Shown: piece by piece, positions 11,932-59,189 of the stretch
Layout: each line of letters opens with the position of its first letter
Position numbering within the stretch: the first letter of the stretch is position 1
From: an uncultured Oenococcus sp.
Lineage (GTDB): Bacteria > Bacillota > Bacilli > Lactobacillales > Lactobacillaceae
Length of the DNA stretch: 64,000 nucleotides
Reading direction: 5' to 3'
NCBI GenBank assembly: GCA_934229385.1
Contig: CAKQDH010000006.1
Span: 1 to 64,000 of the forward strand
Notes under the pieces: model-generated
What the model was told of the DNA's origin: nothing
What the model saw: only the letters and a program-made list of their open reading frames with translations
The model's database searches: none
Translations under genes and position numbers: made by a program

Positions 11932-12353
11932 TGATCTTTATGAAAGATGAGGAAATAAAATTTCTAGTTAACGTACTCAAAAAGAATAGTTTATCACAAA
12001 TAGTTTATAAGAATAATAAAGAGAAAATTATTTTAAAACAAGAATTAAATCAAACTATATCCCCAAAGCAATCTCTTAATTTACCGAGAGAAAAACCTAA
12101 CAAACAAAAAATTACAAAAAAAGTTACGATTAATTCGCCAAGTGTTGGTACTTTTTACACCGCTAAAAATCCTAAAGATCCCCCCTTAGTAAAGGTAGGT
12201 AATCATGTTTCAGTAGGAGACACTATTGGGATTGTTGAAGCTATGAAAATGATGAAAGAAATTAAAGCTGATAAAGCCGGCATAGTTAATGCTATTTTGG
12301 TTAAAGATGGTCAAGGAGTAGAATTTAATGAACCGCTTATTCAACTCAAATAA
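11928..12353 (+). CDS. accB: Biotin carboxyl carrier protein
   Basis: Carries CO2 on biotin between a biotin carboxylase and a carboxyltransferase. The C-terminal ~75 residues form the biotinyl domain with VEAMKMM (Lys107 in this frame is the biotinylated residue). Before it come a Pro/Lys-rich linker and an AccB-type N-terminal helix region (EIKFLVNVLKKNSLSQIVY). Start uncertain: GTG at 11928 or ATG at 11940 (MKDEEIKF), both after AGAAGG. The reading frame runs 26 nt into accC. Its place right after pxpBC, with no accA or accD nearby, suggests that its partner may be PxpBC and not acetyl-CoA carboxyltransferase. Confidence 0.85.
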   Translation: MMIFMKDEEIKFLVNVLKKNSLSQIVYKNNKEKIILKQELNQTISPKQSLNLPREKPNKQKITKKVTINSPSVGTFYTAKNPKDPPLVKVGNHVSVGDTIGIVEAMKMMKEIKADKAGIVNAILVKDGQGVEFNEPLIQLK

Positions 12354-13704: not shown

Positions 13705-14485
13705 CCTTTCTCATATAAAACCCGTTGAATTGCGGCATTTAATTAGAAAAGGAATTTTTACTAAACCAACAAGTGGCTTATGCCCTGGTTTTACTCAAGT
13801 TAATTTAGTTATCATTCCATCCGATTTGGCTTATGATTTCTTATTATTTACTCAAAGAAATCCTCGTCCTTGCCCGATTTTAGAAGTAGCTGATATTGGA
13901 AGCCGCAAATTGCATTATTTAGCCCAGGATATTGATCTAGCAAATGATTTTCCTAAATATAATATTTATCAGTATGGGAAGTTAACGAAAACTTGTCAAT
14001 CTGTAGGTAATATCTGGCAGAAAAATTTTATTAGTTTTCTTATTGGGTGCAGTTTTTCTTTTGAATCAGAACTAATTTCTTCTGGAATAGAAGTTCGTAA
14101 TATAACGGAGCACGTAAATGTTCCCATGTATAAAACTAATATACCTTTAAGAAAAGCAGGTCCGTTTCAAGGAAAAATGGTAGTAAGTATGCGGCCGATT
14201 CCTGAGAAACAAGTTCCAAAAGTTGTTCAGGTTACAGCTAATATGCCTAAAGTACATGGTGCTCCTATTCAAATTGGTGATCCTTCATCAATTGGTATTA
14301 ATAGCCTTATTCGACCAGATTATGGAGATCCAGTAACGATTAAGGATGGAGAAATTCCAGTTTTTTGGCCTTGCGGTGTGACTCCTCAAAATGTCATTAT
14401 GAATGTAAAACCTTCATTAGTTATAACTCATACACCGGGACATATGTTGGTTACAGATATAGTTAATGAAACCTTGAAATATTAA
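13694..14485 (+). CDS. ycsI: DUF1445 / YcsI family, D-glutamate cyclase-like
   Basis: Member of the YcsI (DUF1445) family, annotated as 'putative hydro-lyase' and related to the mammalian D-glutamate cyclase that turns D-glutamate into 5-oxo-D-proline. Visible family segments: IRKGIFTKPTSGLCPGFTQ near the N-terminus, FLIGCSFSFESELISSGIE with its Cys, the NVPMYKTNIPL strand, and VFWPCGVTPQNVIM at the C-terminus. 263 residues is full length. ATG follows AGGAGAAAAG, and the gene overlaps accC by 11 nt. Producing 5-oxoproline next to the enzyme that consumes it would make biochemical sense, but the activity of the bacterial members is inferred. Confidence 0.8.
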   Translation: MKTNLSHIKPVELRHLIRKGIFTKPTSGLCPGFTQVNLVIIPSDLAYDFLLFTQRNPRPCPILEVADIGSRKLHYLAQDIDLANDFPKYNIYQYGKLTKTCQSVGNIWQKNFISFLIGCSFSFESELISSGIEVRNITEHVNVPMYKTNIPLRKAGPFQGKMVVSMRPIPEKQVPKVVQVTANMPKVHGAPIQIGDPSSIGINSLIRPDYGDPVTIKDGEIPVFWPCGVTPQNVIMNVKPSLVITHTPGHMLVTDIVNETLKY

Positions 14486-14510
14486 AAAATAATAAAATTA
14501 AGGAGCTAAA

Positions 14511-15260
14511 ATGTTAACGATAGATTTAAATAGTGACCTCGGAGAAAGTTTTGGTAGATATACTTTAGGAAATGATAGTGCTCTGATTCCTTTAATAAGT
14601 TCGGCTAATATTGCTTGTGGTTATCATGCTGGAGACCCTAACACAATGTTTAAAACGGTTAGATTAGCAGAAAAATCTGGTGTAGGCGTGGGGGCTCACC
14701 CCTCTTTTCCTGATTTAAATGGGTTTGGCAGACGATATATGTCTATGCAACTTGAAGATGTTACTCATATGATAATTTATCAGATTGCAGCTCTTTTGGG
14801 TTTTACAAAGAATCATCGCCTGCATCATGTTAAACCCCATGGTGCTTTATATAATGCTGCTGGTAAAAATTTAAAACTAGCAATGGCCATTTGTAAAGGT
14901 ATCAAATTTGTAGATCCAGATATAAGGGTTTACGGCCTTTCTAATAGCTGCTTGATTCAAGCTGCAAAAAATTTAAAACTTCCATTTGTTCAGGAAGTTT
15001 TTGCTGATAGGAATTATGAAGAAGATGGTAGCTTAGTTCCTCGGACTCAACAAAAAGCCGTTTTAACGGATCCAGATTTTATAGCAAAAAGAGCTGTTAA
15101 TATGATTAAAACTAAATCTGTAATTTCTATCACTGGGAAAAAAGTACCCTTGGCAGTTGATTCCATTTGTGTTCATGGAGACAATCAAAAAGCACTTTTT
15201 ATAGTAAAAAAAATTATAACAAATTTAAAACAAAATAAAATTATCATGAAAAAGTCATAA
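14511..15260 (+). CDS. pxpA: 5-oxoprolinase subunit A (LamB/YcsF family)
   Basis: Catalytic partner of PxpBC in opening 5-oxoproline. The conserved N-terminus DLNSDLGESFG, SSANIACGYHAGDP, GVGAHPSFPDLNGFGRR, HHVKPHGALYN and FADRNYEEDGSLVPR are all present, with acidic and histidine residues typical of this beta/alpha-barrel family. 249 residues is normal. ATG preceded by AAGGAGCT. Last gene of the operon, 25 nt after ycsI; a weak hairpin follows before the convergent purD. Confidence 0.9.
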   Translation: MLTIDLNSDLGESFGRYTLGNDSALIPLISSANIACGYHAGDPNTMFKTVRLAEKSGVGVGAHPSFPDLNGFGRRYMSMQLEDVTHMIIYQIAALLGFTKNHRLHHVKPHGALYNAAGKNLKLAMAICKGIKFVDPDIRVYGLSNSCLIQAAKNLKLPFVQEVFADRNYEEDGSLVPRTQQKAVLTDPDFIAKRAVNMIKTKSVISITGKKVPLAVDSICVHGDNQKALFIVKKIITNLKQNKIIMKKS

Positions 15261-15406: not shown

Positions 15407-16636
15407 TTATAAATCTTTATAACCAATATCTTTACGATAATAAAAATTATTTAAATTGATTTTATCTAACTCTTGATATACTCTTTTTTGGGTAGCTAAT
15501 AGATCTTTTTTATGATCTACGATTGTAAAAATTCTACCTCCCGAGCTATATCTTTTTTTATTTTTTTCTAAAATACCAGCATAAAATACATTTTGAGGTA
15601 AATTTGGAATAAATATGTTTTGTTTAGGATGAGAAGGATAGCCTGGAGCACAGACTGTAACTCCTAGGTAAAAATTATCTTTTTGCCATTTTATTTTCGG
15701 CTTTCGATTATTTATGAGGCTTATAACCAATTGGTAGAAATCACTTTTAAGTTGTGGTAGGAGAACTTGTGTTTCTGGGTCTCCTAAACGGACGTTATAT
15801 TCAATAACCTTTGGTCCTTTTTGGGTTAATATGCATCCAATATAAATAACACCCGTATAATTGTATTTTTCTTTTTTTAAGCCGTTAATAGTAGGCTTAA
15901 TAATATTTTTTATTACCTGTTTTTTTATATTTTTATTAATATGTGGTATTGGAGAATAAGCCCCCATTCCCCCAGTATTTGGTCCTTTTTCACCTTTATA
16001 AAGTTTTTTATGATCTTGAGCAAATGGTGAGAGAATTTCGTTATCAGGACTAATAAATAAGAAGATTGAGAATTCTTCTCCTTTTAAGAAATTTTCAATT
16101 AGTATTTTGCCAGATTTTTTTAAACTTTTTTTAATTATTGAAGGTATTTCCTTTTTATTTCGGGTTATAGTAACGCCCTTACCTCCTGCTAAACCGTTTT
16201 CTTTTATTACCATAGGCGAAGGTATTTTATCAGCATATTTTTTTGCCTGAAGATAGTTGGTGAATGACTTATATTCAGCAGTAGGGATTTTGTTTTTTCG
16301 CATGAATTCCTTAGCAAATTTTTTATCACTCTCTAAGCGGGATGATTTTTTATCTGGTCCAAAAATTTTAAACCCTTTAGAGCTGAAATAATCAACTATT
16401 CCCTTAGCTAAGGGTAACTCAGGACCTACAAAAATTAGATTTATATTTTTATTTTTACAAAATGATAGTAATTTTTTAAAATTTAATTCTGCAATATTAA
16501 CGCATATAATTTTATGTGCTACCATACCTGGATTTCCAGGGGCACAATAAACTTTATCGACTTGAGGGCTTTTTAAAAATGTTGTGGCAATAACATCTTC
16601 TCGACCTCCAGAGCCAATAACAAGAACTTTTGACAT
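15407..16636 (-). CDS. purD: Phosphoribosylamine-glycine ligase
   Basis: Second step of de novo purine synthesis: ligates glycine to phosphoribosylamine with ATP, giving GAR. N-terminal KVLVIGSGGREDVIA, the ATP-grasp segment VIKENGLAGGKGVTI, GPNTGGMGAYSP and VIEYNVRLGDPETQV are diagnostic. 409 residues, full length. Note that GREDVIA replaces the usual GREHA(L/I) near the N-terminus, so the His is an Asp here. Last gene of the purine operon, 65 bp after purH, with its own AAAGGTG site. Confidence 0.93.
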   Translation of the reverse strand: MSKVLVIGSGGREDVIATTFLKSPQVDKVYCAPGNPGMVAHKIICVNIAELNFKKLLSFCKNKNINLIFVGPELPLAKGIVDYFSSKGFKIFGPDKKSSRLESDKKFAKEFMRKNKIPTAEYKSFTNYLQAKKYADKIPSPMVIKENGLAGGKGVTITRNKKEIPSIIKKSLKKSGKILIENFLKGEEFSIFLFISPDNEILSPFAQDHKKLYKGEKGPNTGGMGAYSPIPHINKNIKKQVIKNIIKPTINGLKKEKYNYTGVIYIGCILTQKGPKVIEYNVRLGDPETQVLLPQLKSDFYQLVISLINNRKPKIKWQKDNFYLGVTVCAPGYPSHPKQNIFIPNLPQNVFYAGILEKNKKRYSSGGRIFTIVDHKKDLLATQKRVYQELDKINLNNFYYRKDIGYKDL

Positions 16637-16701
16637 GGGTAATTCACCTTTTTATTGTAATTTATAAATGTTTATAATGATTTACTAATAATATTATATT
16701 T

Positions 16702-18231
16702 TTAATGCCTAAAATGCCTTGTCCCTGTCATTACCATAGATATGCCAAACTTATTAGCCATATTAATAGAGTCTTGATCTCGAATACTTCCCCCGGGTTG
16801 AATTATGGCTTTGATATCATGTTTAGCTGCGTATTCTACACAGTCGGGCATAGGAAAAAAGGCATCTGAGGCTAAAATAGCTTTTTCGTAACCGTCTTTT
16901 GGCATAGCTTTTTTTATCGCAATTTTTGCAGAATCAATTCTATTAGGTTGACCAGCACCAACACCTAAAGTTTTATGGCCAGTTGCAACTACAATAGCAT
17001 TACTTTTAACAAATTTAACTACATGCTGACCAAATTGAAGCGCTTTTAATTGAGATTGAGTAGGTTGCTTTTTAGTTACTACTTTAAAATCTTTAATTTT
17101 ATCAACTTGATGATCGGTTTCTTGCATTAATAAACCTCCGCTAACAGAAATGGTTTCGAATTTATCTGGTTTATTTTTTTGAGTTAAATCTATCTTTAGT
17201 AAACGAATATTTTTCTTTTTTTCTAAAATAGTAAGGGCCTCTTTACTAAAAGAAGGAGCAATGACAATTTCTAAAAATATTTTATGCATTTTTTTTGCTG
17301 TATCTGTGTCAACTTCTCGATTGACAGCAATAATGCCCCCAAAAATTGACATTGAATCGGAAGCATAAGCTTCATTCCAAGCAATGCTTAAATTCTTGGC
17401 AATACCAACACCACAAGGACTCATATGTTTCATAGCGATAACTGCTGGTTCGTTAAATTCTGCAACCATATTTAAAGCAGCATTTGCATCTTTAATATTA
17501 TTAAAGGATAATTTTTTTCCGTGAAGTTGTTTTCCAATAATTGAGAGGTTAGATTTCTTTTCTTTTTGATAGAAAGCAGCTTTTTGGTGACTGTTTTCCC
17601 CATATCGAAGTTCCTGTAATTTTTCGTAAGGTAGAACTAATTTTCTTGGAAATTCTTCTGAGGAAAAATGTTTGGCAATTAAAGCGTCATAGGAAGCAGT
17701 CCAACTAAAAATTTTTATAGCTAGTTTTTTCCTAAATTTATAATCATCTTTATGATTTTTTAAAGCTTCAATTATTAAATCATAATCTTTAGGATCGATT
17801 ACAGGTAAAACGCTTTTAAAATTTTTTGCTGCAGCCCGTAACATAGAAGGGCCGCCAATATCAATTTTGTTAATGACTTCTTTTTCAGTTGAATTAGGTT
17901 TTTCTATTGTTTGTTTAAAAGGATAAAAATTTACATCAATCAGATCAATTGGTTTTATTTTTTTACTTTTAATTTCCTCTATATGCTTTGGATTATCTTT
18001 TTGAGCTAAAATGCCACCAAAAATATTAGGATGGAGGGTTTTAATTCTTCCATCTAACATTTCTGGGAACCCAGTAATTTCTTTGATTTTTGTAAATTTT
18101 ATTCCTGCTTTTTGAAGGACTTTGCCAGTTCCTCCTGTAGAAATTAATTCATAATTTAATTTTATTAATTTTTTAGCAAAACCTATTAAATTTTCCTTAT
18201 TTGATACGCTAATAAGAGCTCTTTTTGTCAT
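16702..18231 (-). CDS. purH: Bifunctional AICAR formyltransferase / IMP cyclohydrolase
   Basis: Performs the last two steps to IMP, using 10-formyl-tetrahydrofolate. The N-terminal MGS-like cyclohydrolase domain (residues 1-~145) has [31 protein letters not shown] and [10 protein letters not shown]. The C-terminal transformylase domain has [14 protein letters not shown] and [10 protein letters not shown], with the catalytic Lys-His pair visible in AMKHMSPCG. 509 residues is full length. It starts one base after purN ends, with AAGGAG upstream. Confidence 0.95.
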
Positions 18232-18825
18232 TTATATTTCTCCTTTTTGAAATAAATATTGAACCGTTTCCGGATATAATTTATGTTCTGTATGATGAAT
18301 TCTTTGTGTTAATTTTTCCAAATTATCATTTTTATAGATAGGGACCTTTCTTTGGGCAATAATTTCCCCCGTGTCAATCCCCTTATCAACCCAATGAACG
18401 GTTACTCCTGTATTTTTTGCTTTAGCGTTGAAAGCATCTTTAATACCAGTCTTACCTGGAAAATGAGGTAATAAGGCAGGATGAATATTGATTATTTTTC
18501 CTTCATATTTAGAAAGTATAGTAGGTCCGATTATACGCATGTATCCAGCTAAAATAATAAAATTAATTTTTTCTTTTTTTAATTTTTTTAAAATAATTTT
18601 TTCGCTAATAATTTTATTAGAATATTTTTTAAAATTGATAACAAAGGTAGGAATTAACTCTTTTTTGCTTCTATTTAATACATTTGCTTTTTGATGGTCA
18701 CATATTAACAATTTAACCTTAAGAGGCAAATTTGTTTTTTTAAAATAATGAACTAGAGCAGAAAAATTAGTTCCTTCCCCTGAAGCGAAGATGGCAAGAT
18801 TCTTTGGGTAAGAATTTTTGAGCAT
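18232..18825 (-). CDS. purN: Phosphoribosylglycinamide formyltransferase
   Basis: Transfers a formyl group from 10-formyl-tetrahydrofolate to GAR (third purine step). LAIFASGEGTNFSAL at the N-terminus binds phosphate; the catalytic set Asn-His-Asp is in IINIHPALLPHFPG and VHWVDKGIDTGEIIAQ. 197 residues is normal. The start overlaps the purM stop by one base (TAATG), after GAGGAAAC. Confidence 0.94.
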   Translation of the reverse strand: MLKNSYPKNLAIFASGEGTNFSALVHYFKKTNLPLKVKLLICDHQKANVLNRSKKELIPTFVINFKKYSNKIISEKIILKKLKKEKINFIILAGYMRIIGPTILSKYEGKIINIHPALLPHFPGKTGIKDAFNAKAKNTGVTVHWVDKGIDTGEIIAQRKVPIYKNDNLEKLTQRIHHTEHKLYPETVQYLFQKGEI

Positions 18826-19835
18826 TAGTTTCCTCTAATTATTACTTTTTGTTTTCCCTTAATAATTTTTCCCACAATAAAAAATTTTTTATTATTTTTC
18901 TTAAAAATTTTTATAGCTTTTTTAAGTTTATTTTTATGAACTACTAGTACCATTCCTAATCCTAGATTGAAAGTATTCTCCATGTCTTTAAAAGAAAGCT
19001 GTCCCAGTACTTGTAGATCCTTCATTATATTAGGAACTTTCCATTTTTGAATATTAAATATGGCTGATAGATTTTTTGGTAAAATGCGTGACATATTTTC
19101 TATTAATCCTCCACCGGTAATATGAGCTATGGCAGTTATAAGGCCTTGTTTAATTAGGGGGTAAACAGTTTTAAAATATATAGCAGTTGGTTTTAGTAAT
19201 TCTTGGGCTAAACTTATTTTGCTATGTGGTAATTTATCATTTAATTTGTAATTATTTTCTTTAAATAAAATGTCTCTAACTAAACTAAAACCGTTAGAGT
19301 GCAATCCGTTAGAAGGTAAGCCAATTAAAATATCTCCAGTTTTCAAATTATTAGTTTTTAATAGTTGCTTTTTGTTAGCAATGCCGACAGCAAAGCCTGC
19401 TAAATCATAATGGCCATCTGGATACATGCTTGGCATTTCGGCTGTTTCTCCACCAATTAATTTGCTTTTTGCTTGTGAAACCCCTTTTAAAATCCCTGAT
19501 AAAATTTTTCTTCCCTTTTTATTATTTAGATGTCCAATTCCTAAGTAATCTAGGAAAAATAATGGCTTGGCGCCTTGAGCCAAAATGTCGTTAATACACA
19601 TTGCTACTAAGTCTATTCCAATTGTTTCATGAATGTTTGCCCTATTAGCGATTAATAATTTTGTCCCCACCCCATCAGTTGAAGAAACTAAAATTGGGTT
19701 TTTGTATTTTGAAAAGTTAAGCGGAAACGTTCCTGCAAAGGATCCTAATTGTTTATTATGTGAATCCCTTTTTATTTCTTTAATAAATTTATGCCCTGCT
19801 TCAATATCGACACCAGCTTTTTTATATGCATCCAT
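18825..19835 (-). CDS. purM: Phosphoribosylformylglycinamidine cyclo-ligase (AIR synthetase)
   Basis: Closes the imidazole ring (fifth step) with ATP. DAYKKAGVDIEAGH at the start, STDGVGTKL, DLVAMCINDILAQGAKPLFFLDY, GGETAEMPSMYPDGHYDLAGF and ITGGGLIENM are the standard family blocks. 336 residues is full length. It lies 2 bp after purF; the short repeat AGACTCTCTTT is present twice across this junction. Confidence 0.95.
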   Translation of the reverse strand: MDAYKKAGVDIEAGHKFIKEIKRDSHNKQLGSFAGTFPLNFSKYKNPILVSSTDGVGTKLLIANRANIHETIGIDLVAMCINDILAQGAKPLFFLDYLGIGHLNNKKGRKILSGILKGVSQAKSKLIGGETAEMPSMYPDGHYDLAGFAVGIANKKQLLKTNNLKTGDILIGLPSNGLHSNGFSLVRDILFKENNYKLNDKLPHSKISLAQELLKPTAIYFKTVYPLIKQGLITAIAHITGGGLIENMSRILPKNLSAIFNIQKWKVPNIMKDLQVLGQLSFKDMENTFNLGLGMVLVVHKNKLKKAIKIFKKNNKKFFIVGKIIKGKQKVIIRGN

Positions 19836-19837
19836 TT

Positions 19838-21289
19838 TTAGACTCTCTTTAGACTCTCTTTTAATAATTGTTTTTGTTCTTGTTTATAAGCTTTGTCATA
19901 ATCATATAATGGTGTAGGATAATGACCATTAAAATAAGCTACACAAAGCCCTCCATTAGGAGCAGAAGTTTTTAATCCTACTGATTTTATTAGGCCTTTT
20001 ATGCTTAAGAATCCTAACGAATTGGCTTGAAAAATTTTTCGCATTTGTTTAACCGTTTTATGGGCTGCTATAAGTTCACTTATATGTTGAATATCGATTC
20101 CATAAAAACACGGATACCTAAGAGGTGGAGAAGCAATCCGTAAGTGAACTTCAGAGGCGCCTGCATGTTTTAATAGCTTTACAATTCTTTTACTTGTAGT
20201 CCCTCTTACGATCGAATCGTCTACTAAAACCACTTTTTTTCCTGCTACTACACCTTTAACTGGGGATAATTTCATATCAACGCCTTGTTGACGAAGTTCT
20301 TGGGTAGGCTCAATAAACGTTCGAGAAGAATATTGATTTTTAATTAGCCCCATTTCATAAGGTAATCCACTCTCTTCAGCATATCCAATAGCTGCAGATA
20401 AGGAAGAATTAGGGACCCCGGTTACTATATCGGCTTTTACTGGATGCTCTTTTGCTAACCGTTTACCCATTTTTTTTCGAGCAGCATGAATATTTACTCC
20501 ATATATATCAGAATCAGGTCGAGAAAAATAAATATATTCCATAGAACAAATTGCTAACTGGGTATGGTTAGTGTACCTTTCTACATGGATGCCAGAATCA
20601 TCAATTTTTATCAATTGTCCAGGTTTTATATCAAATTTAAATTGAGCTCCAACAGCATTTAAAGCGCAAGTTTCACTACATACTACATAACCACCAGAAG
20701 GTAATTGTCCGACTACCAAAGGCCTAAATCCATTAGGATCTAGGGCAGCATATAAGCGATCTTTTGTGATTATTAGAAAAGCAAATCCACCCTTAATAAT
20801 TTTAAGAGATTCTTTTACTTTGTTGTCTAAGCGTTTAGCTTTACTTAAACGTATTAAATGCATTATGTTTTCACTATCAGAACTAGATTGATAAATAGCT
20901 CCTTGTGATTCTAATTTTTTTCTTAAAGAAATAGCATTTGTTAAATTTCCATTATGAGCAATAGCAAATTGGGTATCACTAAAATTAAAGGGTAAAGGCT
21001 GAATATTTTCTAAAACATTATTGCCTGCTGTTGAATATCTAACATGCCCCAAAGCTGCTGTGCTGGAGATTTTATCAAAAGTATTTGGTGAATTAAAAAC
21101 ATCATTTAACAAACCCAACCCTCTTTTAGTAAAAAGTTTTCCTTTGTTATTAATTGTAATTCCAGCACCTTCTTGTCCGCGATGTTGAAGAGCAAACAAA
21201 CCAATATAAGTGAGTTTGGCAGCGTTATTATTTCCCCAGATACCAAAAAGGCCACATTCTTCATTAAGGCTTCTTATTTCAGACTGCAC
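19838..21289 (-). CDS. purF: Amidophosphoribosyltransferase
   Basis: First committed purine step: converts PRPP and glutamine to phosphoribosylamine. The start chosen is GTG at 21289: AGGAG lies 7 nt upstream, and it gives an 11-residue propeptide (ending NEE) before the catalytic Cys of CGLFGIWG, as in Bacillus PurF. An in-frame TTG at 21307 would overlap the ribosome site. Class II glutaminase domain with RYSTAGNN and IAHNGNLTNA, then a phosphoribosyltransferase domain with VVLVDDSIVRGTTSK (PRPP loop). The CxxxC cluster residues expected near the C-terminus are partly visible (SPPLRYPCFYGID, GLCVAYF). It overlaps purL by 16 nt. Confidence 0.94.
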   Translation of the reverse strand: MQSEIRSLNEECGLFGIWGNNNAAKLTYIGLFALQHRGQEGAGITINNKGKLFTKRGLGLLNDVFNSPNTFDKISSTAALGHVRYSTAGNNVLENIQPLPFNFSDTQFAIAHNGNLTNAISLRKKLESQGAIYQSSSDSENIMHLIRLSKAKRLDNKVKESLKIIKGGFAFLIITKDRLYAALDPNGFRPLVVGQLPSGGYVVCSETCALNAVGAQFKFDIKPGQLIKIDDSGIHVERYTNHTQLAICSMEYIYFSRPDSDIYGVNIHAARKKMGKRLAKEHPVKADIVTGVPNSSLSAAIGYAEESGLPYEMGLIKNQYSSRTFIEPTQELRQQGVDMKLSPVKGVVAGKKVVLVDDSIVRGTTSKRIVKLLKHAGASEVHLRIASPPLRYPCFYGIDIQHISELIAAHKTVKQMRKIFQANSLGFLSIKGLIKSVGLKTSAPNGGLCVAYFNGHYPTPLYDYDKAYKQEQKQLLKESLKRV

Positions 21290-23496
21290 GGCATTGCTCC
21301 TTTCCAAATATGAAATGCCTTACTCGTATTAATATCAAAATAGTTTTCAGAAGTTTTAACATTTATATGGTTATCGTTAGTTACATGACCTAAATAGTGG
21401 GCATTTTTACCTGTAATTTGTTTAAATTGTGGTTCATTCCTTTTTGGTATTGATACTAAAAATCTAGACTGGCTTTCTGAAAAGAATTCTTTAGTTTTTA
21501 AATTACTCTTTAAATTTACTCCTAAATGTTTTCCAAAGCAGCTTTCTGCGATTGCAATAATTAAGCCTCCTTCAGAAATATCATGAACACTGTGTAAAAG
21601 GTCTTTCTTATTTAATGAATGAACTATTTGCTGAATTTTATATTCATAAGCTAAATTAAAAGAAAAGAGTTTTCCATTAATTTTTCCTAGTTGCATTTTT
21701 TGAATTTCTGAGCCATTAAATGCATTTTGTGTTTGACCAATTACGTAAACTAGGTCTCCTTCACTTTGAAAATTTTGAGTAATAATATGTTTTAGATTTT
21801 TAACTAATCCTACCATTCCTATCATGGGAGTTGGATAGATAGGAATATTATTATATTCATTATTTAAAGAGACATTACCAGAAATAATGGGAGTATGGAA
21901 AACTTTTGCAGCTTTAGAAATACCGATTGTAGCTTTATCTAATTCATAGAATTGTTCTGGTTTAGTTGGATTCCCAAAATTTAAACAATCTGTAATACCT
22001 AAAGGGGTAGCTCCTGAAGCAACAATATTTCTGGCTGCTTCGGCAACTGCAATTTGGCCACCTATTTCTGGATTTAAATATAAATATCTTCCATTCACAT
22101 CAGTAGTTATTGATAAAGCTTTATTATAATGGCGGATACGAATTATTGCTGCATCAGAACCCGGTCCGACAAGAGTATTGGTTTGAACTTGAGAATCATA
22201 GGTTTGATAAATGTTTTCTTTAGAAGCAATTGTTAATTGCTTTAACATTCCTTCTAAGGTTTTATTTGGAGATAAAATTTTAGGATTATATTGCTGACCC
22301 TTTAACTTTACTAAATGTTTAGGCTTTACGGATTTACGATGATAAACAGGCGCTTGTGAATCTAATGAATTAATGGGGACGCTAGCTACTAAATTTTGAT
22401 GATAAAATAATTTATATTGATGATTATTAGTTACGTGGCCAATTATTACAGCCTCTACGCCATGCTTAGAAAAAGTATTTATAATTTCTTTTTCGGTACC
22501 AGCTTTGATGCATAAGAGCATTCTTTCTTGAGATTCAGAAAGCATAATATCAAAGGCACTCATATTCTTTTCTCTTTTTGGTACTAGGTCGAGGTTTAGA
22601 TTAATACCGTTTCCTCCGGCTTTGGATCCCATTTCAGCTGAAGAAGAAACTAAACCTGCTGCACCCATATCTTGGATGCCAATTACTGATTTATGATGAT
22701 TTTTTATGGCGTCTAAGCAAGCTTCCATAACAAGTTTTTCAGTAAAAGGATCACCAACTTGGATAGCGGAACGTTGACTTTTATGTTTAGAATCAAATTG
22801 AGAAGAAGCAAATGAAGCACCATTAATACCGTCGCGACCGGTTTTAGCTCCTACATACAAGATACTATTACCTGTTCCTTTAGCAGCCCCTATTTCGATA
22901 TCCTTTAAATTCATCAAGCCTACACACATGACATTTACTAAAGGATTGTTTTTATAATTATCATCAAAAGTTGTATCTCCCCCTACCGTAGGAACACCTA
23001 TACAATTTCCATAAGAACTAATACCAGCTACGATTTGTGAAATTAAATATTTATCGTTATCGTTTTTAGGTTCCATAAAACGCAGACTATCTAAACAAGC
23101 GATAGGTCTGGCACCCATAGAAAAAATATCTCTAAGAATGCCGCCTACTCCTGTTGTAGCTCCTTGAAATGGCTCTACAGCTGAAGGATGGTTATGGCTT
23201 TCTGCTTTAAAAACTACTCCTTGATGATCACCGATATCAATGATTCCAGCCCCTTCGCCCGGTCCTTTTATAACTTGTTTATTAGAATTTGGGAGCCTTT
23301 TTAAAACAGATTTAGAATTTTTATATGAACAATGTTCGCTCCACATACCAGAATACAGACCAATTTCAGTATAATTTGGTAAGCGGTGTAAAAATTTTTC
23401 AACTATTAACTGATATTCACCATCAGTAAGTCCTATTTTTTGGTAAATTTTTGAATTTTTAATTTCTTTAGGACTAATTTCTTTTTCTATATTCAT
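21274..23496 (-). CDS. purL: Phosphoribosylformylglycinamidine synthase subunit II
   Basis: Synthetase subunit of FGAM synthase (fourth step), working with PurQ (glutaminase) and PurS. The start is set at the ATG of MNIEKEIS (23496), which has AAAGGGAT upstream and fits the family N-terminus; a longer frame to 23565 only adds sequence overlapping purQ. Blocks such as [52 protein letters not shown] and [15 protein letters not shown] are present. About 740 residues is the small PurL type that needs PurS. It overlaps purQ by 23 nt. Confidence 0.95.
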
Positions 23497-24172
23497 AAAC
23501 CATCCCTTTATTTTTAATTTTTTTAACGAGAGAATAAAAAATGCCACAACCATCATGGGAGCCAAGAATATCTTCTACGGCCCTTTCTGGATGAGGCATC
23601 ATGCCTAAAATATTACCTTTTTTGTTAGTTATTCCAGCTATATTAGCTATACTTCCATTAGGGTTATTTTTATAAGAAAAAATAATTTGATGATTTTTTT
23701 GTAAATTTTTTAAAGTTTTAAAATTACAAAAGTAATTGCCTTCATTATGAGCAATAGGTAAAGTTATGGTTTGTTTATAGTTATATTGTGAAGTGAAACT
23801 CGTGTGGATATTATTGACATGGATTTTTTCTGATTGACATATAAATTTTGCAGAAATATTTTTTTGTAAGCTTCCCGGAAGCAGTCCAATTTCAGTTAAT
23901 ATTTGAAAACCATTACAGATTCCTAAAATTGGTTTTCCTTCATTAGCGAATTTTTTTAGAGCAGGGATAATTGGAGAAAAACTAGCAATCGCCCCACTTC
24001 TTAAATAATCACCATAGGAAAAACCACCGGGGATTAAAATTACATCAAAACCCTTTAAATCTTGTTTTTTATATGAAATTAGGCTTACGTTTTCTTTGAT
24101 AATATCTTTTATAGCGTAATAAAGATCCATCTCACAATTAGATCCAGGAAAATTTATAATCGCAAATTTCAT
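23474..24172 (-). CDS. purQ: Phosphoribosylformylglycinamidine synthase subunit I (glutaminase)
   Basis: Class I glutamine amidotransferase that feeds ammonia to Pur[11 protein letters not shown], the oxyanion segment [17 protein letters not shown], nucleophile elbow [13 protein letters not shown] (catalytic Cys) and [11 protein letters not shown] (catalytic His and Glu) are intact. 232 residues is normal. Overlaps purS at its start and purL at its end by a few bases. Confidence 0.95.
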
Positions 24173-24432
24173 TTAATTTCTTCTTTTTTTAAAATTTGGT
24201 AATGATAACTTTCCATATTAACGTTAGCTAAAAGTTTGTCACAAATTTCGTTAATTTCGCTATCAGCCTGTTTGAAATTTTTTGAAGAAAGTCGAAGCTC
24301 GAAATATTTCCCCATCTTTACATTTTTAACATCGTCGTACCCTAAATGCTTAATCGCTTTATGGACGGCTTGAGCTTCTGGATTTAAAATTGATTTTTTA
24401 TAATTTATATGTATTTTAGCAAGATATGTCAT
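24169..24432 (-). CDS. purS: Phosphoribosylformylglycinamidine synthase subunit PurS
   Basis: Small subunit that bridges PurL and PurQ. The pattern [38 protein letters not shown], quoted here only by its ends ([20 protein letters not shown]), matches the family; 87 residues is usual. It overlaps purC by one base and purQ by four. Confidence 0.93.
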
Positions 24433-25160
24433 TAAGCAATCTCTACTTCTTTTAGCCGTTTTAAGATTTCTTGATAAGCTTTTGTTAAAGAGCCGCTTTC
24501 TTTGCGAAAGACATCCTTATCTAATGATTTCTTTGTTTTTTTATCTACTAAACGGCAACTATCAGGAGAAATCTCATCTGCCAAAATTAATTTATTATTT
24601 TCGTCTATACCAAATTCCACTTTAAAATCGATTAAAGAGATATTCATTTCAGAAAAAATTTTTGAAAGCCTCTTATTTATTTTTAAAATATAAGTTTTCA
24701 TTAAAGTTAATTGATCTTTATTAGCAATTTCTAAGGTTTGTATTTCAGAGTCATTTATAAAAGGATCATCTAATTTATCACTTTTATAATAAAATTCAAT
24801 GATTGGTTTTTTAAATTTTGTTAAATAGAGAAGATTAAATCTTTTTTGAATACTACCTGAAGCAAAATTTCGAATGACAGTTTCTAGGGGAATAATATTA
24901 ACTTTTTTTACTAACTGATTATTATCATCAATTTTTTTTATAAAATGGTTTTTAATGCCATGTTGGGTTAAATCATTAAATATAAAACTAGAAATATTGC
25001 AATCTATTTTGCCTTTATTTGCAAACTTAACTTTTTTTTTGCCATTTAAAGCAGTAACTTGATCCATATAATGGACCCATAAGGTATTAGGCTTATTAGT
25101 AGAAAACATTTCTTTAGCTTTACCTTTATAGAGCAAGCTGTTTTTTTTATAATTGTCCAT
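24432..25160 (-). CDS. purC: SAICAR synthetase
   Basis: Ligates aspartate to CAIR with ATP. Sequence blocks LLYKGKAKEMF, VHYMDQVTALNG, VIPLETVIRNFASGS (here NIIPLETVIRN), LIDFKVEFGID, LADEISPDSCRL identify the family. 242 residues is normal. Third gene of the operon, 4 bp after purK. Confidence 0.95.
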   Translation of the reverse strand: MDNYKKNSLLYKGKAKEMFSTNKPNTLWVHYMDQVTALNGKKKVKFANKGKIDCNISSFIFNDLTQHGIKNHFIKKIDDNNQLVKKVNIIPLETVIRNFASGSIQKRFNLLYLTKFKKPIIEFYYKSDKLDDPFINDSEIQTLEIANKDQLTLMKTYILKINKRLSKIFSEMNISLIDFKVEFGIDENNKLILADEISPDSCRLVDKKTKKSLDKDVFRKESGSLTKAYQEILKRLKEVEIA

Positions 25161-25164
25161 TTTT

Positions 25165-26295
25165 TCAATTTTCTCCTTTAAGTTTAGAAACAGAACTTAT
25201 TAAGTTTTGTACATCATTGCCTAAAATAGTTACATGGCCCATTTTTCGTTGAGGCCTAATTTCTGCTTTTCCATAATCATGAAAATGCCATTCTGGATGT
25301 TGGCTTAATAGATTCCTTGCTATAGTCAAGTCATTTCCTAGTAAATTTCTCATAATGGCTTTTTTATGTTGGAAAATGTGTGGAATAGGCAAACCACAAA
25401 TGCTTCTTATATGGGCTTCAAATTGTGATATGTTACAAGCTTCAATGGTATAATGCCCTGAGTTGTGAGGGCGAGGTGCTAATTCGTTAATTAGAAGTTC
25501 TTTGTCATTTATCACGAAGAATTCGATTCCCAAAACTCCATATAAATTAATATGTTGAGCAATTACTGTAGCATATTTCATAGCTTTTTTATGGATAGTT
25601 TTAGAAAACCTTCCTGGAGCAATAGTAGTATGTAAAATGTGGTTTAGGTGACGATTTTCTACTAAGGGAAAAATTATAATTTTGTTATTTATATCTCTGG
25701 TTACCATTATTGAAGCTTCGGCTATAAATTTTTTTCGTGCTTCTAAAATGCAATTAAAATTTTGGTAAAGCCTTTTTGCGTGATCGATATCATCTTTATT
25801 ATTTATGTCTTGTTGTCCATGGCCATCATATCCACCAGAAACTGTTTTTAATATTGCAGGATAGCCAATTTTTTTAATTGCCTTTAATAATGAATTCCTA
25901 TCGTAAACCGGAGCAAAATTAGTTACAGGCAAATTGCAATCTTTAATAAATCTTTTTTCATTTAAACGATTGCCAGTGACATGGAGTAAATTTGTCCCTT
26001 GGGGTAGGCTAGTTAGTTTTTGAACTTTAATTAGTGAATTTTCATCCACATTTTCAAATTCATAGGTCAATAAATCACTTTTTTTAGCTAATTGCATGAG
26101 AGATTTTAAGTCATCATATTCTGCTATTATTTGAAAATCAGCGATTTGTCCAGCTGGACAATTAGGGGTTGGATCTAAAACTCCAATTTTATAGCCCATA
26201 GATTTAGCAATTAAAGCCATCATTTGTCCTAATTGGCCTCCACCCACAATTCCGATCGTAGAAGGTGGTAAAAAAGTTTTAATTGAGTTTGGCAT
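25165..26295 (-). CDS. purK: N5-carboxyaminoimidazole ribonucleotide synthase
   Basis: ATP-grasp enzyme that carboxylates AIR to N5-[23 protein letters not shown] at the N-terminus, [17 protein letters not shown], and the [17 protein letters not shown] block are typical; 376 residues is full length. The start ATG overlaps the end of purE by 17 nt, indicating coupling with its partner enzyme. Confidence 0.95.
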
Positions 26296-26767
26296 TACTT
26301 TTTTTTGCCTCTAATTTTTGTTCTTTTTTAAATTGAACTAGCTTTTGGGTAATCTCTTTATTACTAGTGGAAATAATTTGAGCGGCTAGAAGTGCTGCAT
26401 TTTTAGCTCCGGAATTTCCTATACTAACGGTAGCTACGGGAGCTCCGAAAGGCATCTGAACAATTGAGAGCAAAGAGTCAATTCCATTCAAAGTATGGGT
26501 TTTAATAGGAACACCTATAACAGGCAAAGTTGTATTTGCTGCGATCATTCCAGGAAGATGAGCTGCTCCGCCGGCGCCAGCTATTATTACTTTTAGTCCC
26601 CTTTTTTGAGCATTTTTTCCAAAAGCCTGTAACTCGTCTGGCATTCGATGAGCAGAAATTACATGTTTTTCATAAGAAATCCCTAATTTGTCAAGTTGTA
26701 AACAAGCTAATTTCATGGTAGACCAATCAGAAATTGACCCCATAAGAATGCCAACAGTTTCTTTCAT
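26279..26767 (-). CDS. purE: N5-CAIR mutase
   Basis: Moves the carboxyl group of N5-CAIR to give CAIR. Class I PurE signature [25 protein letters not shown] and [16 protein letters not shown] are visible; 162 residues. First gene of the purine operon, with AAAGG about 12 nt before ATG and a promoter plus two PurBox-like sites upstream. Confidence 0.96.
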
Positions 26768-37813: not shown

Positions 37814-39720
37814 AATTTTTTATTTGTTCATTTTTGTCTAAAATTTCTTTGCTTTTATTCCATCGTCCCTTATAGAATAATTTAATGGATAAAACATAAG
37901 TTTGCAATCAATTTTTATGATTATTTATATTTTTTTATATTTTATGATCCCTTTTTAGTTTTGGTAATTAATTAGTGAGAAGCTAGTTAAATTGTTGAAA
38001 CATTCTTTTTTGTTTTAATTAATTAAAAATATTAATTTAAAAAAGATAAAGATGATGGAATTTAAGAAAACTAACCCGTTTTTTTAATTAAATTTATAAA
38101 TTAATTTTAGTAATTTAAATGATATTTACAGTTATACTGTTTAATAAACTAAGTTTTTTGGTTTTTCATTCTTAAAATTATTGTCAGAGACTCGAATTAA
38201 CATTCCGCTTATGATTTAAATTACATTTATTAGTAAATTAAATTTTATATGTAAAGTGGGTAATAATTAATTATGGATTTTTTTGTGTTACATACAATTT
38301 TTAAAAAGATTGATTTAGATTATATGTTGAACTAAAAAATTATTTTTCCCTAACGGTCTAAAAAATTTAATTTAATTTATTAAGAAATATATTGAAAAAC
38401 CAAAAATATAAGAAATAGTATTTAGAGACTTTAAATCTTGCTTATAAGTTTTTCGTTATAAATTAATTAAAATATTAAAAGTAGTGAATTTATCATTATA
38501 ATCTAAAATTAAATATTCTGATTAATTTGTTAAATAATAATAAATACTTTATCAAGCCCATATCAAATTATATCAGGGCTTTTAGGAAAAATATTTTAAG
38601 ATGTTTGAACGTAAAGATTTCTACAAGATAAATTCCTGTAAATGAATATTTTAGTGAACATAAAGGTTCAGATTTCTTCTTTTTAAATTTGATTAAATCA
38701 AGTTGTTTCTTCTTTTCTAAATTAATTTAAAGTTTATAAAAACCTTGTAAAATTAAGAATAAAAAATTATTAACCTGAGATTAGGTAGATTATGTAAAAA
38801 ATAACTATTAATTTAACCTTAAAATATAATTAATTGTTATAAAAAAACTAAAAGATAAAGTTATATGGAAAATAATTGTTTAACCCAAATTAATATTAAA
38901 ATTAGTTGAAAACGAACTAATTAGATAACTTAAATATAAATAAAAGTAATTATAATTAAGTAGTTAGTTATTATGAACAAGAAGTTTATCATCCATTTTG
39001 TAATAAACATACTAAATTTTAATCTATTTTTAAATATATGATTATTTCTAGATAATTATTGCTTTGAAAAATTGAATTTGTTATTTAATATGATACTAAT
39101 TTATATAATACTAATTTAAGTTTTAGTTTTTACATTATAAGTGATTATATAAATTAACGGTTTGATTTAAATAAAGGAATGCTTTCCTCATAAAATAGTG
39201 TAAAAAGATAAGATGTAAATTAATTTCAATTAGTGTAATGATATATTTTTATTAGTCCTTAGTTAATAGCTTAAATTTATACTTAAAATATTTAACTTCA
39301 AATCGTTCCAAGAGCTATTTAGTCTAAGGTGTTAAAGAGTTGTATTAAGTATTTTAATTTTTAGTCAGATAAAATTTTTTAGTAAGGATTTAATTTTCTA
39401 ATTTCTTTAGAATTGGTTTTTTATTAATAAGAGAAAAAGAAATTAACTGAATTTTATTAAAATAAACTAGAGCACCAAATCATAACTAATGAAGTGAAGA
39501 TTATATTAGTAATAAAGTTATAGTTCTAATAAATATTAAACTTTACTTTATTTTATGTATTATTGGTTATTCGCTAATAAACTGCTTATTATTAAAAACA
39601 ACCTTAATATTTAATTAAAAAAATCAAAATTTCGGTTATTTTTATTTTATTTATAATTTTAAATATCTATTAAAATACCTTAATTAATCAAAGAAAGATT
39701 ACATTAATTGTTATTTAAAA
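37814..39720. other. 1.9-kb AT-rich stretch without genes
   Basis: No frame of gene-like length or composition on either strand. The only structure noted is AAGCCC/GGGCTT around 38555-38582 followed by TTTT, a weak possible terminator. Composition is even more AT-rich than the other spacers. It may be decayed sequence or may hold an RNA that cannot be recognised by eye. Confidence 0.6.
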
Positions 39721-43593: not shown

Positions 43594-44748
43594 TTATTTT
43601 TTTTTGTTTATTAAATTAGCTGTATCTTTAGTTGGGCTTTTTGCTAAGATTAAAGCCAATACGAAGAACATATCAAAATGTTGCAAAGCAACTTCTGTAA
43701 AACCTAATGCAAAGAAAGAAAAAATTAAAATAGCTGCTTTCCAGGTTATTTTTCTAGAATAATGATTTAACCAAGCCGTAAATACGGTTATCATTTCGAT
43801 TGTAAAAACGATTCCCTTAGCAATTAATGCTTCTAAATAATAATTGTCAATTATTGAATGACGATTTAATTGTTCGTTTGCAAGTAGATGAATGCCTCCT
43901 TCATGATAATATTGAACATAAAGTTTTAATCTATTAGCTAATAAGGAATCTAAATTTTTGTTATAGGGAGCAAATAAAACATATAATGAAAGAATTAAAA
44001 ATAAAATAGGCATTAAAGTGACTATTTTGCCAAGAAAATTTGGTAAGATTTTATCTGCTATATTACCTAATAAAAAGAGAAGAATTAAAACAAATAATAT
44101 GATGATGTAAGAAGTTCTCGATTTAGTTTGAGTATAAATAAGCCAGGTAATTAAAGCTAAAAATAAATAAAATATTCGATGATTAGAACTATTTAAAATG
44201 CCTAATAAGCCGTATATAATTGAAAGATACTGCATCATAGCTTCATTTGGGAAGAAAAAACCAATAGATTTCCTTGCTACATGTATCCCATTTCGAGCTG
44301 TAATGGCATCATTATTATTAAAATTAAAAGTATAGTAAGCCAAAATAATTAAAATAAATAGGATTAGACTAATAAATGTAAAAGTTTTTAAAATTTTATT
44401 ATAATCAATGTCTTTCTCTGCATTTATTATAGCAATGAAAACAATCGTCATTGTAATAGAAATCATCTCAGGAGCTTTATTTATAAGTAAAATTAAAATA
44501 GATATTAAAATACAAGATAGATAAAAAAGATTAATGCCCTTATTCAGAATATAAATAAAGTAGACAAAAAGAAAAGCCAAAGCCTCTATACCATTAGTTA
44601 TGTTGCTTGGTAAAAAAGAAAATCCCAAATTTTTGATAATGGTGGTTATAGCTATAATAACAGCTAAAAAATTTAAATCATTTGTTAAAGAATTATTAAA
44701 ATAATTACTATATTTATGATTACTTCCTAGGGCTTTCTTTTTTATCAT
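43594..44748 (-). CDS. Wzy-like polysaccharide polymerase, copy 1
   Basis: About ten membrane helices with a large extracellular loop, the shape of O-antigen/EPS polymerases that join repeat units outside the membrane. The segment NHRIFYLFLALITWLIYTQ followed by TKSRTSY is nearly identical to that in the gene at 45.2 kb, so the two are paralogues. 384 residues. No catalytic motif can be named; the Wzy family is too variable. Confidence 0.7.
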   Translation of the reverse strand: MIKKKALGSNHKYSNYFNNSLTNDLNFLAVIIAITTIIKNLGFSFLPSNITNGIEALAFLFVYFIYILNKGINLFYLSCILISILILLINKAPEMISITMTIVFIAIINAEKDIDYNKILKTFTFISLILFILIILAYYTFNFNNNDAITARNGIHVARKSIGFFFPNEAMMQYLSIIYGLLGILNSSNHRIFYLFLALITWLIYTQTKSRTSYIIILFVLILLFLLGNIADKILPNFLGKIVTLMPILFLILSLYVLFAPYNKNLDSLLANRLKLYVQYYHEGGIHLLANEQLNRHSIIDNYYLEALIAKGIVFTIEMITVFTAWLNHYSRKITWKAAILIFSFFALGFTEVALQHFDMFFVLALILAKSPTKDTANLINKKK

Positions 44749-45150: not shown

Positions 45151-46281
45151 TTATTTTTTTAATAGAGAAGTTTTAGAAGCTTCATTTGCTAAAATTAATA
45201 CCATTAAGAAAAATAAATTAAAGCGCTGCAAAGAAGTTTCAGTAAAAGCTACGAAAAAGAAGGAAGCTATCAAAATTGCACCTTTATAAGTCATATTTTT
45301 AGCATAATGATTAAGCAAACTTGTAAAGATGGTTATCATTTGGATTGTAAAAACAATTCCCTTGGTAATTAAGGTTTCAATATAAGAACTATCAATTAAA
45401 GGTTTGGTTTTAAAAGAAAGGTTTCTTAAAAAATGTAGCCCCCCACCCTCTTTATAATAATGTTGATAAAAATGTATCCTATGAGAAAGGAGAGAATCTA
45501 AATTTTTATTATAAGGAGTTAGTAAAAAATATATAGAAGAAAATAATAAGATAACTGGAAGCCAGGTAATGAATTTACCCCAAAGAGTAGGTAAACGTTT
45601 ATTAGCATGTCTCCCCAAGATAAAAAATAGTCCTAACGCTGCTAAAATAACATAAAAAGAAGTTCTGGATTTAGTTTGGGTATAAATAATGCAAGTAACG
45701 AAAGCTAAAAATAAATAAAAGATTCGGTGGTTAGCGCGTTTTAAAAGAGCAATTAACCCATAAACTATCGAAAGGTAGTCTACCATTGCTATATTTGGTT
45801 GTTCAAAGCCAAGTGCTCTTCTAAAGATTTGTTCGTTATTTCGCCAACCAAGCAGATTATGATTGTTAAAATTAAAAATATAATAAGCGGCTACAATTAA
45901 GATAAATATAGCTAAAGTAGTATAAGTGAAAACTTTTAAAAGTTTCTCGTAGTTAATGTTTTTTTCTGTAAATATAATATAAATAAAAGTGATCATCATC
46001 GTAGATGAAATCATTTCAGGAGAACGATTGATTAACATGATAACTAAAGAAATGATAATAAAACCTAATCTAACCTGATTAATTTCATCAAGTCCTTGTT
46101 TTAAAATATGTAGAGCATAAACAGATAGAAAGACCAAGGCTTCTAAAAATTGGGCTATATAAGCAATGCTTTTATTTATGCCTAGATCACCAATTATAGT
46201 TATAATGCTTAAAAAAAAGGCTAAAAATAAAAGAATATTATCAAACTTTTTTTCAGTAATCACCATCCAGTTTTTTATCAT
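45151..46281 (-). CDS. Wzy-like polysaccharide polymerase, copy 2
   Basis: Paralogue of the 43.6-kb gene: same length, same helix pattern and shared blocks (ANHRIFYLFLAF, YTQTKSRTSF, RINRSPEMIS-type segment LINRSPEMISSTMM against LINKAPEMISITMT). 376 residues, about ten helices. Likely also an EPS polymerase or a repeat-unit ligase of the same family. The duplication may allow a change of linkage between repeat units. Confidence 0.7.
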   Translation of the reverse strand: MIKNWMVITEKKFDNILLFLAFFLSIITIIGDLGINKSIAYIAQFLEALVFLSVYALHILKQGLDEINQVRLGFIIISLVIMLINRSPEMISSTMMITFIYIIFTEKNINYEKLLKVFTYTTLAIFILIVAAYYIFNFNNHNLLGWRNNEQIFRRALGFEQPNIAMVDYLSIVYGLIALLKRANHRIFYLFLAFVTCIIYTQTKSRTSFYVILAALGLFFILGRHANKRLPTLWGKFITWLPVILLFSSIYFLLTPYNKNLDSLLSHRIHFYQHYYKEGGGLHFLRNLSFKTKPLIDSSYIETLITKGIVFTIQMITIFTSLLNHYAKNMTYKGAILIASFFFVAFTETSLQRFNLFFLMVLILANEASKTSLLKK

Positions 46282-58280: not shown

Positions 58281-58434
58281 TGATATAAAAAAATTGATGG
58301 TTTTTATTGGTTATTTAAGTATTTTCAAGTCTTTATTTCATTTAAATTTAATAAAAAAATTTTAAAAGTGATAGTTTATGTTAAAATAAAAAAACGGTGA
58401 GGGATTTTAAATCTCTTACTTAATTTTATAAATT

Positions 58435-58528
58435 GGAGAGGTACTCAAGTGGTCTAAGAGGCTTAGCTTTTAGTTAAGTAGGTCGGATTATTTCCGGTGC
58501 GAGGGTTCGAATCCCTTTTCCCTCTCCA
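58435..58528 (+). tRNA. Aberrant tRNA-Ser-like gene, predicted anticodon UUU
   Basis: Cloverleaf: acceptor GGAGAGG with CCTCTCC (58521-58527), D arm CTC/GAG, anticodon stem CTTAG/TTAAG, loop CTTTTAG, long variable arm TCGG/CCGG, T arm GAGGG-TTCGAAT-CCCTT. D arm, variable arm and T arm closely match bacterial tRNA-Ser(GCU). By position the anticodon is TTT, which would read lysine codons. Three extra nucleotides (TTC, 58518-58520) stand between T stem and acceptor stem. CCA is not encoded. A long hairpin terminator follows. It could be a non-coding tRNA, a pseudogene, or a tRNA with a role outside ordinary decoding. Confidence 0.75.
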
Positions 58529-58530
58529 TA

Positions 58531-58590
58531 AAATAAACTAATAAAAAACATCAGCTTAATGTAAAGTTGATGTTTTTTATTAGTTTATTT
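58531..58590. terminator. 27-bp hairpin terminator after the tRNA-like gene
   Basis: The arms (58531-58557 and 58564-58590) pair throughout with one G-U, loop AATGTA; the core is CATCAGCTT/AAGTTGATG followed by TTTTTT within the right arm. Terminates in the plus direction and, with A/T symmetry, possibly in both. Confidence 0.75.
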
Positions 58591-58619
58591 TAATCTAATT
58601 AAAATTGTATATGAACCGG

Positions 58620-59140
58620 AAACTGGTTTTATCTTCTAACTACCAAAAACCAAGACCTCGTCGTAGCTGTAAGAAATCATCACCTAGCTTTCCGTTTCAA
58701 AAGCCAGTTAGTGATAATTCTTGTCTATGATAGTCTATAAAGCTAAACCCGCCGGACATAAATTTGTCCCAGTCAATTCTAAAACACTACTCAAACTTGT
58801 TTTCTTGTGGTTATGTTATGTCTGATAAATAAAGGCTTACCTTAAATCAACGTCAATAGGTTTTGTCCTAAATATTACACCGAACATATTCGTAATTGAA
58901 ATGCAGTGAAAAACATTTTAGCTAAGGGGACATCTCAGATATTAACTATTTAATAAACTAATAAATTAATCCTTTTGGCAACTTAAGGACGTAAAAGCTT
59001 AGCTAACTCCTATTACTTTCTACTTTTCAGATATAGCAATATATTAAAAAGCCAGCTTATCTAAATAAATTATAGAGAATTATATGTTTTCTTGATATTA
59101 GAATTACAAGCCACGGGTTTTAACCACTGGTAGTTGGCTT
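58620..59140 (+). pseudogene. tnpB: Degenerate IS200/IS605-type transposon end with tnpB remnant
   Basis: Frames broken by stops and shifts still read like the TnpB C-terminus: a KFVPVN-type segment near 58761, SCGYVM of the first zinc knuckle near 58803, LTLNQRQ then VCPKY (second knuckle, Cys lost) near 58840-58875, and NAVKNILAKG near 58903-58930. The 3' end carries the subterminal fold ACAAGCCACGGGTTTTAACC followed by ACTGGTAGTTGGC, typical of right ends of these elements. Only the last third of a tnpB gene survives; no TnpA. Confidence 0.7.
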
Positions 59141-59189
59141 AAAAATATTAGTTATTAGTTAAAAATGCATACTTAATTTTTATTTTGAC

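Follow-up and report, generated by a model that had tools for sequence, protein, structure and literature searches.

A candidate non-decoding serine tRNA with a UUU anticodon, compared with anticodon-less tRNA-Ser mimics that mostly lie beside FemABX genes on staphylococcal plasmids

Seryl-tRNA synthetase (SerRS) recognizes its substrates by their long variable arm without regard to the anticodon, and because of this a tRNA-Ser body with a wrong or useless anticodon should still be chargeable. The allo-tRNAs and tRNA-Sec accept serine and combine long variable arms with unusual anticodons, and their acceptor and T stems stack into a helix of 12–13 bp (8+4, 9+3 or 8+5). Here we describe a gene of the tRNA-Ser(GCU) type, with a long variable arm and the anticodon UUU, on the forward strand of a stretch of 64,000 nucleotides (contig CAKQDH010000006.1, positions 1 to 64,000; the whole stretch is referred to as the window). 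Unlike the allo-tRNAs and tRNA-Sec, the window gene does not have a 12–13 bp acceptor–T helix, its stems of 7 and 5 pairs being separated by an unpaired TTC. Among tRNAs with a role outside translation, copies of tRNA-Gly in Staphylococcus aureus are thought to be reserved for FemABX, with T-stem changes that fit weak binding of EF-Tu (PMC4052509, PMC9976931). The tRNA-Ser mimics described below look like a serine counterpart of these cell-wall tRNA copies. The S. aureus tRNAs differ in that they carry glycine and in that their reported changes fall at 49–65, 51–63 and 18–19, whereas the window gene keeps strong 49–65 and 51–63 pairs and has a bulge. By its description in PMC3399842, tRNAOther of Bacillus cereus is also a single tRNA-like gene acting outside translation, and its deletion affects cell-wall morphology; in contrast to the window gene it has a Trp anticodon, is poorly aminoacylated (with lysine in vitro) and acts on gene expression.

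We hypothesize that the window gene encodes a structured tRNA-Ser derivative that has been withdrawn from translation, most likely to act as seryl donor for the FemABX-dependent incorporation of serine into the peptidoglycan cross-bridge, and we hold this reading with a confidence that falls a little short of even. Our current working model is that SerRS would charge the transcript with serine through the long variable arm, that the bulge between the T and acceptor stems would weaken its use by EF-Tu or the ribosome, and that the seryl group would pass to a non-ribosomal transferase, most probably FemABX, for insertion into the cross-bridge. We infer that the window gene belongs with the mimics and that it is expressed, charged with serine and served by a transferase of its host. 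An earlier note, made from the sequence of the window, had proposed that the gene is silent, excluded from the ribosome or a controlled mistranslator. That list probably contains the answer, and the comparative evidence makes the second item, exclusion from the ribosome in a cell-wall role, more likely, because anticodon-less tRNA-Ser mimics adjoin FemABX genes of the Lif/Epr type on staphylococcal plasmids; the mistranslator is unlikely.

The gene is complete, from G1 at 58435 to A73 at 58528, and its arms run GGAGAGG-TA-CTC-AAGTGGTCTAA-GAG-G-CTTAG-CTTTTAG-TTAAG-(22-nt variable region)-GAGGG-TTCGAAT-CCCTT-TTC-CCTCTCC-A, with CTC/GAG as the D stem and TAGGTCGGATTATTTCCGGTGC as the variable arm (Table 1). 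The four stems are fully paired, with two G.U among their 20 pairs, and CCA is not encoded, as is also the case in the ordinary Lactobacillaceae tRNA-Ser genes examined. The body and arms, the UUU anticodon and the 3-nt TTC insert between the T and acceptor stems are all as the earlier note had described them. ARAGORN, a check suggested there, names the gene tRNA-Lys (ttt) at 58436–58528 and finds no other tRNA in the window, while the Rfam tRNA model matches 58435–58525 at 32.1 bits (gathering score 29). The gene departs from ordinary tRNA-Ser(GCU) in two respects, the anticodon, which is UUU instead of GCU, and the insert, which replaces a direct joint of T stem and acceptor stem; from ordinary tRNA-Lys it departs in its variable region, 22 nt long as against the short loop of the tRNA-Lys genes examined. 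Two other candidate peculiarities were rejected: RNAfold draws the anticodon hairpin with 7 bp and a triloop, but ordinary tRNA-Ser folds likewise, and the T stem GAGGG/CCCTT is common among ordinary tRNA-Ser genes and so is not a derived trait.

Table 1. Positions of the tRNA-Ser-type gene, its arms and the neighbouring hairpins in the window
Feature	Position	Strand	Basis
tRNA-Ser-type gene, UUU anticodon	58435..58528	+	ARAGORN, Rfam, arm layout
Acceptor stem, 5' strand GGAGAGG; pairs 7/7 with 58521-58527 (CCTCTCC)	58435..58441	+	
Anticodon arm CTTAG-CTTTTAG-TTAAG, 5+7+5; UUU at 58469-58471	58462..58478	+	
Variable region, type II (long), 22 nt	58479..58500	+	
T arm GAGGG-TTCGAAT-CCCTT	58501..58517	+	
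TTC, three extra bases at the junction of T stem and acceptor stem; exact position within the T run arbitrary	58518..58520	+	
Terminator-like 29-nt inverted repeat, 97% complementary, directly abutting A73	58529..58592	+	terminator and repeat scans
Further terminator-like hairpin, downstream of the AEC transporter gene and upstream of the tRNA	58396..58420	+	terminator scan

As a reference we used 24 distinct ordinary tRNA-Ser(GCU) genes, collected by pattern from the loci examined. The window gene differs from the four nearest ordinary genes at 10 stem positions, which amount to five pairs altered on both sides with pairing restored. When the same number of substitutions was placed at random, with 4000 trials per reference gene, 20/20 pairs were recovered once or never for each of 12 of the 24 genes. 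Folding has been maintained while the sequence changed, and such compensatory changes argue against simple decay, although they do not prove a present function. The junction insert was traced in 397 Lactobacillaceae genomes with a T-arm pattern that permits 0–3 extra bases and covers genes with a GAGGG/CCCTT T stem and a YTCTCC end. Of its 74 matches, spread over 40 genomes, 68 (37 genomes) have no extra base and six (three genomes) have two; all six insert-bearing matches are tRNA-Ser mimics.

The comparison with FemABX comes from plasmids. The first part of an Oenococcus-type mimic (see below) matched staphylococcal plasmids, and a search with one of these matches returned 22 plasmid records, 21 from Staphylococcus and one from Mammaliicoccus. 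The 20 records examined (H34 and H35 were left out) hold 21 copies with 11 distinct sequences, as counted by eye; the lysostaphin plasmid pACK1 bears two. A FemABX gene lies within 3 kb of 19 of the 21 copies (tblastn with the pACK6 FemABX protein as query), and 10 of the 11 distinct sequences have at least one copy so placed. These 19 neighbours include a 97-residue fragment (pACK1, 39009) and a gene in two pieces (L190; G and L numbers are our labels for genomes and loci), and their annotations are lif, epr, ‘FemAB family serine transferase’ and aminoacyltransferase. The copies with no FemABX nearby are L183, where an IS257 transposase lies beside a CHAP gene, and L191. The stretches around 12 of the 21 copies also hold a CHAP or M23 endopeptidase match. 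According to PMC11396672, Lif uses seryl-tRNA, serine replacing glycine in the cross-bridge. Our literature search met no title or abstract start that pointed to a tRNA gene beside lif or epr, which counts weakly in favour of novelty.

When the class was scanned with the D-arm pattern, at most two mismatches being allowed, four of 398 genomes matched, namely G128, which carries Oenococcus-type mimics, and G864, G880 and G975, which are probably staphylococcal. In the 14 staphylococcal-type sequences compared, three of them from G864, G880 and G975, the anticodon arm is a hairpin of 5–8 pairs with very divergent letters, and the T stem has two U.U mismatches in 13 sequences and one in the other, a pattern that we read as retention of the hairpin and loss of the anticodon. 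Taken over 20 mimic loci of both groups (18 distinct arms), the anticodon hairpin has 5–9 pairs, in one case 11. ARAGORN, applied to 20 mimic loci, makes no call at 14 and reports tRNA-???, tRNA-Ile or tRNA-Asn at six. The Enterococcus raffinosus megaplasmid, one of the plasmids of about 1 Mb concerned, has at L131:301-392 an ordinary-looking tRNA-Ser(GCU) gene.

The second group of mimics came to light when phage records were searched by BLAST with the window region, which is related to an unannotated element in the Oenococcus phage phiS13 (two accession numbers). Such mimics occur in five of the seven genomes of one genus, the two that have none, G174 and G195, being the smallest. We take this genus to be Oenococcus because the host of phiS13 is Oenococcus and the phage copy and the G151 copy are identical by eye. 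Elements of 103 nt with at least 95% identity to the L095 copy are found three times in G151, twice in G128 and once in G102; G102 also has a diverged copy (75–77%), as do G036 and G072. The arm comparison took in six of the nine genomic copies: their anticodon arm is a hairpin of 22 or 32 nt with 8–11 pairs, and five of the six have 1–2 extra bases at the T/acceptor junction, whereas L127 has no insert and is disturbed by G.U pairs only. In an order-wide search with an Oenococcus-type mimic two of 395 genomes matched, G128 with its mimics and G359 with an ordinary tRNA-Ser; as just G128 carried them, the mimics are rare. The window tRNA itself matched 31 of 301 genomes, and the matches listed, besides the mimics of G102, G128 and G151, are ordinary tRNA-Ser genes.

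The surroundings of these mimics gave several separate observations. At phiS13 38018-38135 (L091:2501-2618) the 5' flank of the phage copy equals that of the G151 locus L094 and the 3' flank that of the G151 locus L128, by eye, as if the mimic were a site of recombination or attachment; PMC8074189 describes two tRNA-Ser genes of O. oeni at which remnants of phages lie. Mimic loci common to G128 and G151 (L132-L136) were also seen; to judge from their open reading frames (ORFs), the mimic adjoins a 339-aa pyruvyl-transferase-like ORF at L132 and L134, and lies near aldo-keto-reductase-like and MATE-like ORFs at L133 and L135. Searches with the window region gave no match in plasmids and phiS13 alone in phages, and two viral-contig patterns, the second of which did not accommodate the D arm of the window gene itself, found nothing; the idea that the gene came from a phage or plasmid was set aside.

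The window gene and the mimics both have D, variable and T arms like those of tRNA-Ser(GCU), a disturbed T stem or T/acceptor junction and an anticodon that is not GCU. Outside the anticodon arm its best identity is to the Oenococcus mimic L093 (80.7%), ordinary genes reaching at most 79.2% (the value for the mimic row oeno_L094, cut at the wrong arm end, is too low), and by this best identity descent from Oenococcus-type mimics is suggested; overall, kinship with the mimics is weakly supported. A number of findings weigh against the hypothesis. Other mimics fall below the best ordinary genes (L124 76.2%, L127 71.3%, four staphylococcal sequences 59.5–65.8%), and tree support for joining the window gene to L124/L127 is 40. 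The window gene does not have the longer anticodon hairpin of the mimics, its arm measuring 17 nt (5+7+5) with a readable UUU as against 18–32 nt, and with this ordinary length, U33 and A37 decoding is physically possible. Its T-stem pairs 49–65 (G-U) and 51–63 (G-C) are the strong EF-Tu pairs named in PMC4052509, so that the bulge alone argues for escape from EF-Tu. Because four of the five double-changed pairs sit in the anticodon stem, these changes could stem from one exchange of that arm with another tRNA.

The remaining points against it concern the transferase and the sampling. No FemABX was found adjoining the window gene, unlike most staphylococcal mimics, or anywhere else in the window, the best E being 8.4 in a tblastn search with a single staphylococcal FemABX as query, and a Pfam scan of 10 window ORFs gave no FemAB domain. 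FemABX is missing from five of seven genomes examined, that is, from all five lactobacilli other than Leuconostoc, both Leuconostoc genomes having it; across Lactobacillaceae it is present in 40 of 151 genomes. In the stretches read, no FemABX match was found near the Oenococcus-type mimics, nor in the 8.7–16 kb around the mimics of G864, G880 and G975, each of which has FemABX elsewhere in its genome. The staphylococcal copies, moreover, are not independent, 21 copies representing 11 distinct sequences.

Of the other explanations, a dead tRNA-Ser copy, a functionless leftover of duplication or integration altered by drift, is unlikely in our view; in its favour, the gene stands alone, the only tRNA in 64 kb, with an insert at its T/acceptor junction and no forward-strand promoter above the scan threshold. 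Drift sits poorly with 20 intact stem pairs despite 10 stem substitutions and with the strong terminator that directly follows A73. We regard as improbable a regulatory or decoy RNA, charged or not, that would act by pairing, by binding a T-box or a synthetase, or by decoying a nuclease whose target is the anticodon loop of tRNA-Lys; such a role would suit the Lys-type loop CTTTTAG, which resembles the CTTTTAA loop seen in ordinary genes for tRNA-Lys(ttt), and the tRNAOther of B. cereus (PMC3399842) provides a precedent. On the other hand, tRNA was the only Rfam family in the window to reach its gathering score, and no nuclease, T-box or partner was identified, none having been sought beyond that scan.

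Still more improbable than a decoy is a type II tRNA charged by LysRS, in which UUU and A73 would make a lysine tRNA in a serine body, either for decoding or as a lysyl donor. LysRS reads the anticodon, ARAGORN names the gene tRNA-Lys, and G is the commoner base at position 73 of ordinary tRNA-Ser(GCU) (15 G, 8 A and 1 T among the 24 reference genes), yet A73 does occur in those eight, tRNA-Lys has no such long variable arm, the feature by which SerRS chiefly recognizes its tRNAs, and the 3-nt insert is likewise unfavourable. That the gene decodes, placing serine at lysine codons, is very improbable indeed, even though its anticodon arm is canonical (5+7, U33, a purine at 37) and its T stem has pairs that count as strong for EF-Tu in PMC4052509. 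Efficient misreading would be costly, lysine accounting for 9.7% of the 11,854 codons in 31 window ORFs picked for the count, in agreement with the abundance of Lys codons remarked on in the earlier note; the insert speaks against decoding as well, and the mimics that resemble the window gene have lost the anticodon entirely.

It is tempting to speculate beyond the reading of the window gene as a diverted seryl-tRNA. A family of seryl-donor tRNAs that gave up decoding, by loss of the anticodon together with disturbance of the T/acceptor region, may have spread in Firmicutes with or without FemABX; in staphylococci a bacteriolysin, a serine transferase and a private seryl-tRNA would then form one plasmid immunity cassette, and the window gene would be a member that either predates the loss of the arm or has retained it. 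We offer this as a possibility for which our confidence is clearly under even. If it is correct, a private anticodon-less seryl-tRNA beside Lif/Epr-type transferases would bear on lysostaphin immunity in a way that is directly testable, and annotation of tRNAs by their anticodon would be missing tRNA-like genes of a whole class. In any case, the broader occurrence of tRNA-Ser mimics next to serine transferases is a more interesting result than the window locus.

The host of the window was considered through its purine genes. The window has a GC content of 27.4%, and its SHMT is 74% identical to that of Secundilactobacillus. Its pur operon (window 15407-26767) is colinear over ten genes with that of the genome G143 (L270:1721-13076), at 55–73% protein identity; PurL is 68% identical to G143 and at most 58% elsewhere. 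PurH likewise reaches 68% with G143, and no more than 58% with any of 17 matching genomes in another comparison. The PurH and PurL trees place the window on a long branch that does not belong to the Leuconostoc/Oenococcus clade, with unlike composition, and kinship of the host with Oenococcus was rejected on these trees. G143 carries FemABX genes. Kinship of the window host with G143 was nevertheless rejected, as the PurL identity and the colinear operon are explicable by operon transfer, which is possible because two other genomes of the genus of G143 that were compared, G093 and G120, gave no PurL match. Across 28 genomes searched in that genus, no window-like gene was found in the 30 loci read from among the matches listed; 28 of these loci are tRNA-Ser with GCU or UGA, L264 gave no call, and L252 (1492-1581, in G225) is a tRNA-Ser with the anticodon AGA, unusual in bacteria. 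In a further genome (G296:C5:80707-81271) four short matches to the 3' half of the window tRNA are spaced by 181 bases, perhaps a tandem tRNA-Ser array, and several genomes of the genus of G296 have pairs of matches about 200 bases apart, with tRNA-Ser(UGA) in the loci read.

The tRNA begins 154 bases after an AEC-type transporter gene (Pfam PF03547), and the next listed ORF lies 661 bases beyond. The strong terminator that the earlier note had seen is supported by the inverted repeat of Table 1 and by the terminator scan, which gave four sites where 0.2 were expected, two of them overlapping calls on the hairpin that follows A73; the further hairpin of Table 1 may mark the end of the upstream transporter transcript. 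The promoter-like TAAAAT proposed in the same note fared less well: the string is present at 58382-58387, but no forward-strand site exceeded the threshold of the promoter scan, which gave three sites, all on the reverse strand, as against 5.3 expected by chance. From the tRNA terminator to the next gene, about 570 bases (58617-59189) hold no listed ORF of 60 aa or more, and no Rfam family reached its gathering score there. Elsewhere in the window, two adjacent ORFs of 384 and 376 aa (43594-44748 and 45151-46281) resemble, by eye, tandem membrane proteins of the polysaccharide-polymerase type, and a 5-oxoprolinase-like set (PxpB/PxpC/PxpA) with biotin carboxylase and biotin carrier genes, again named by eye, occupies 10195-15260.
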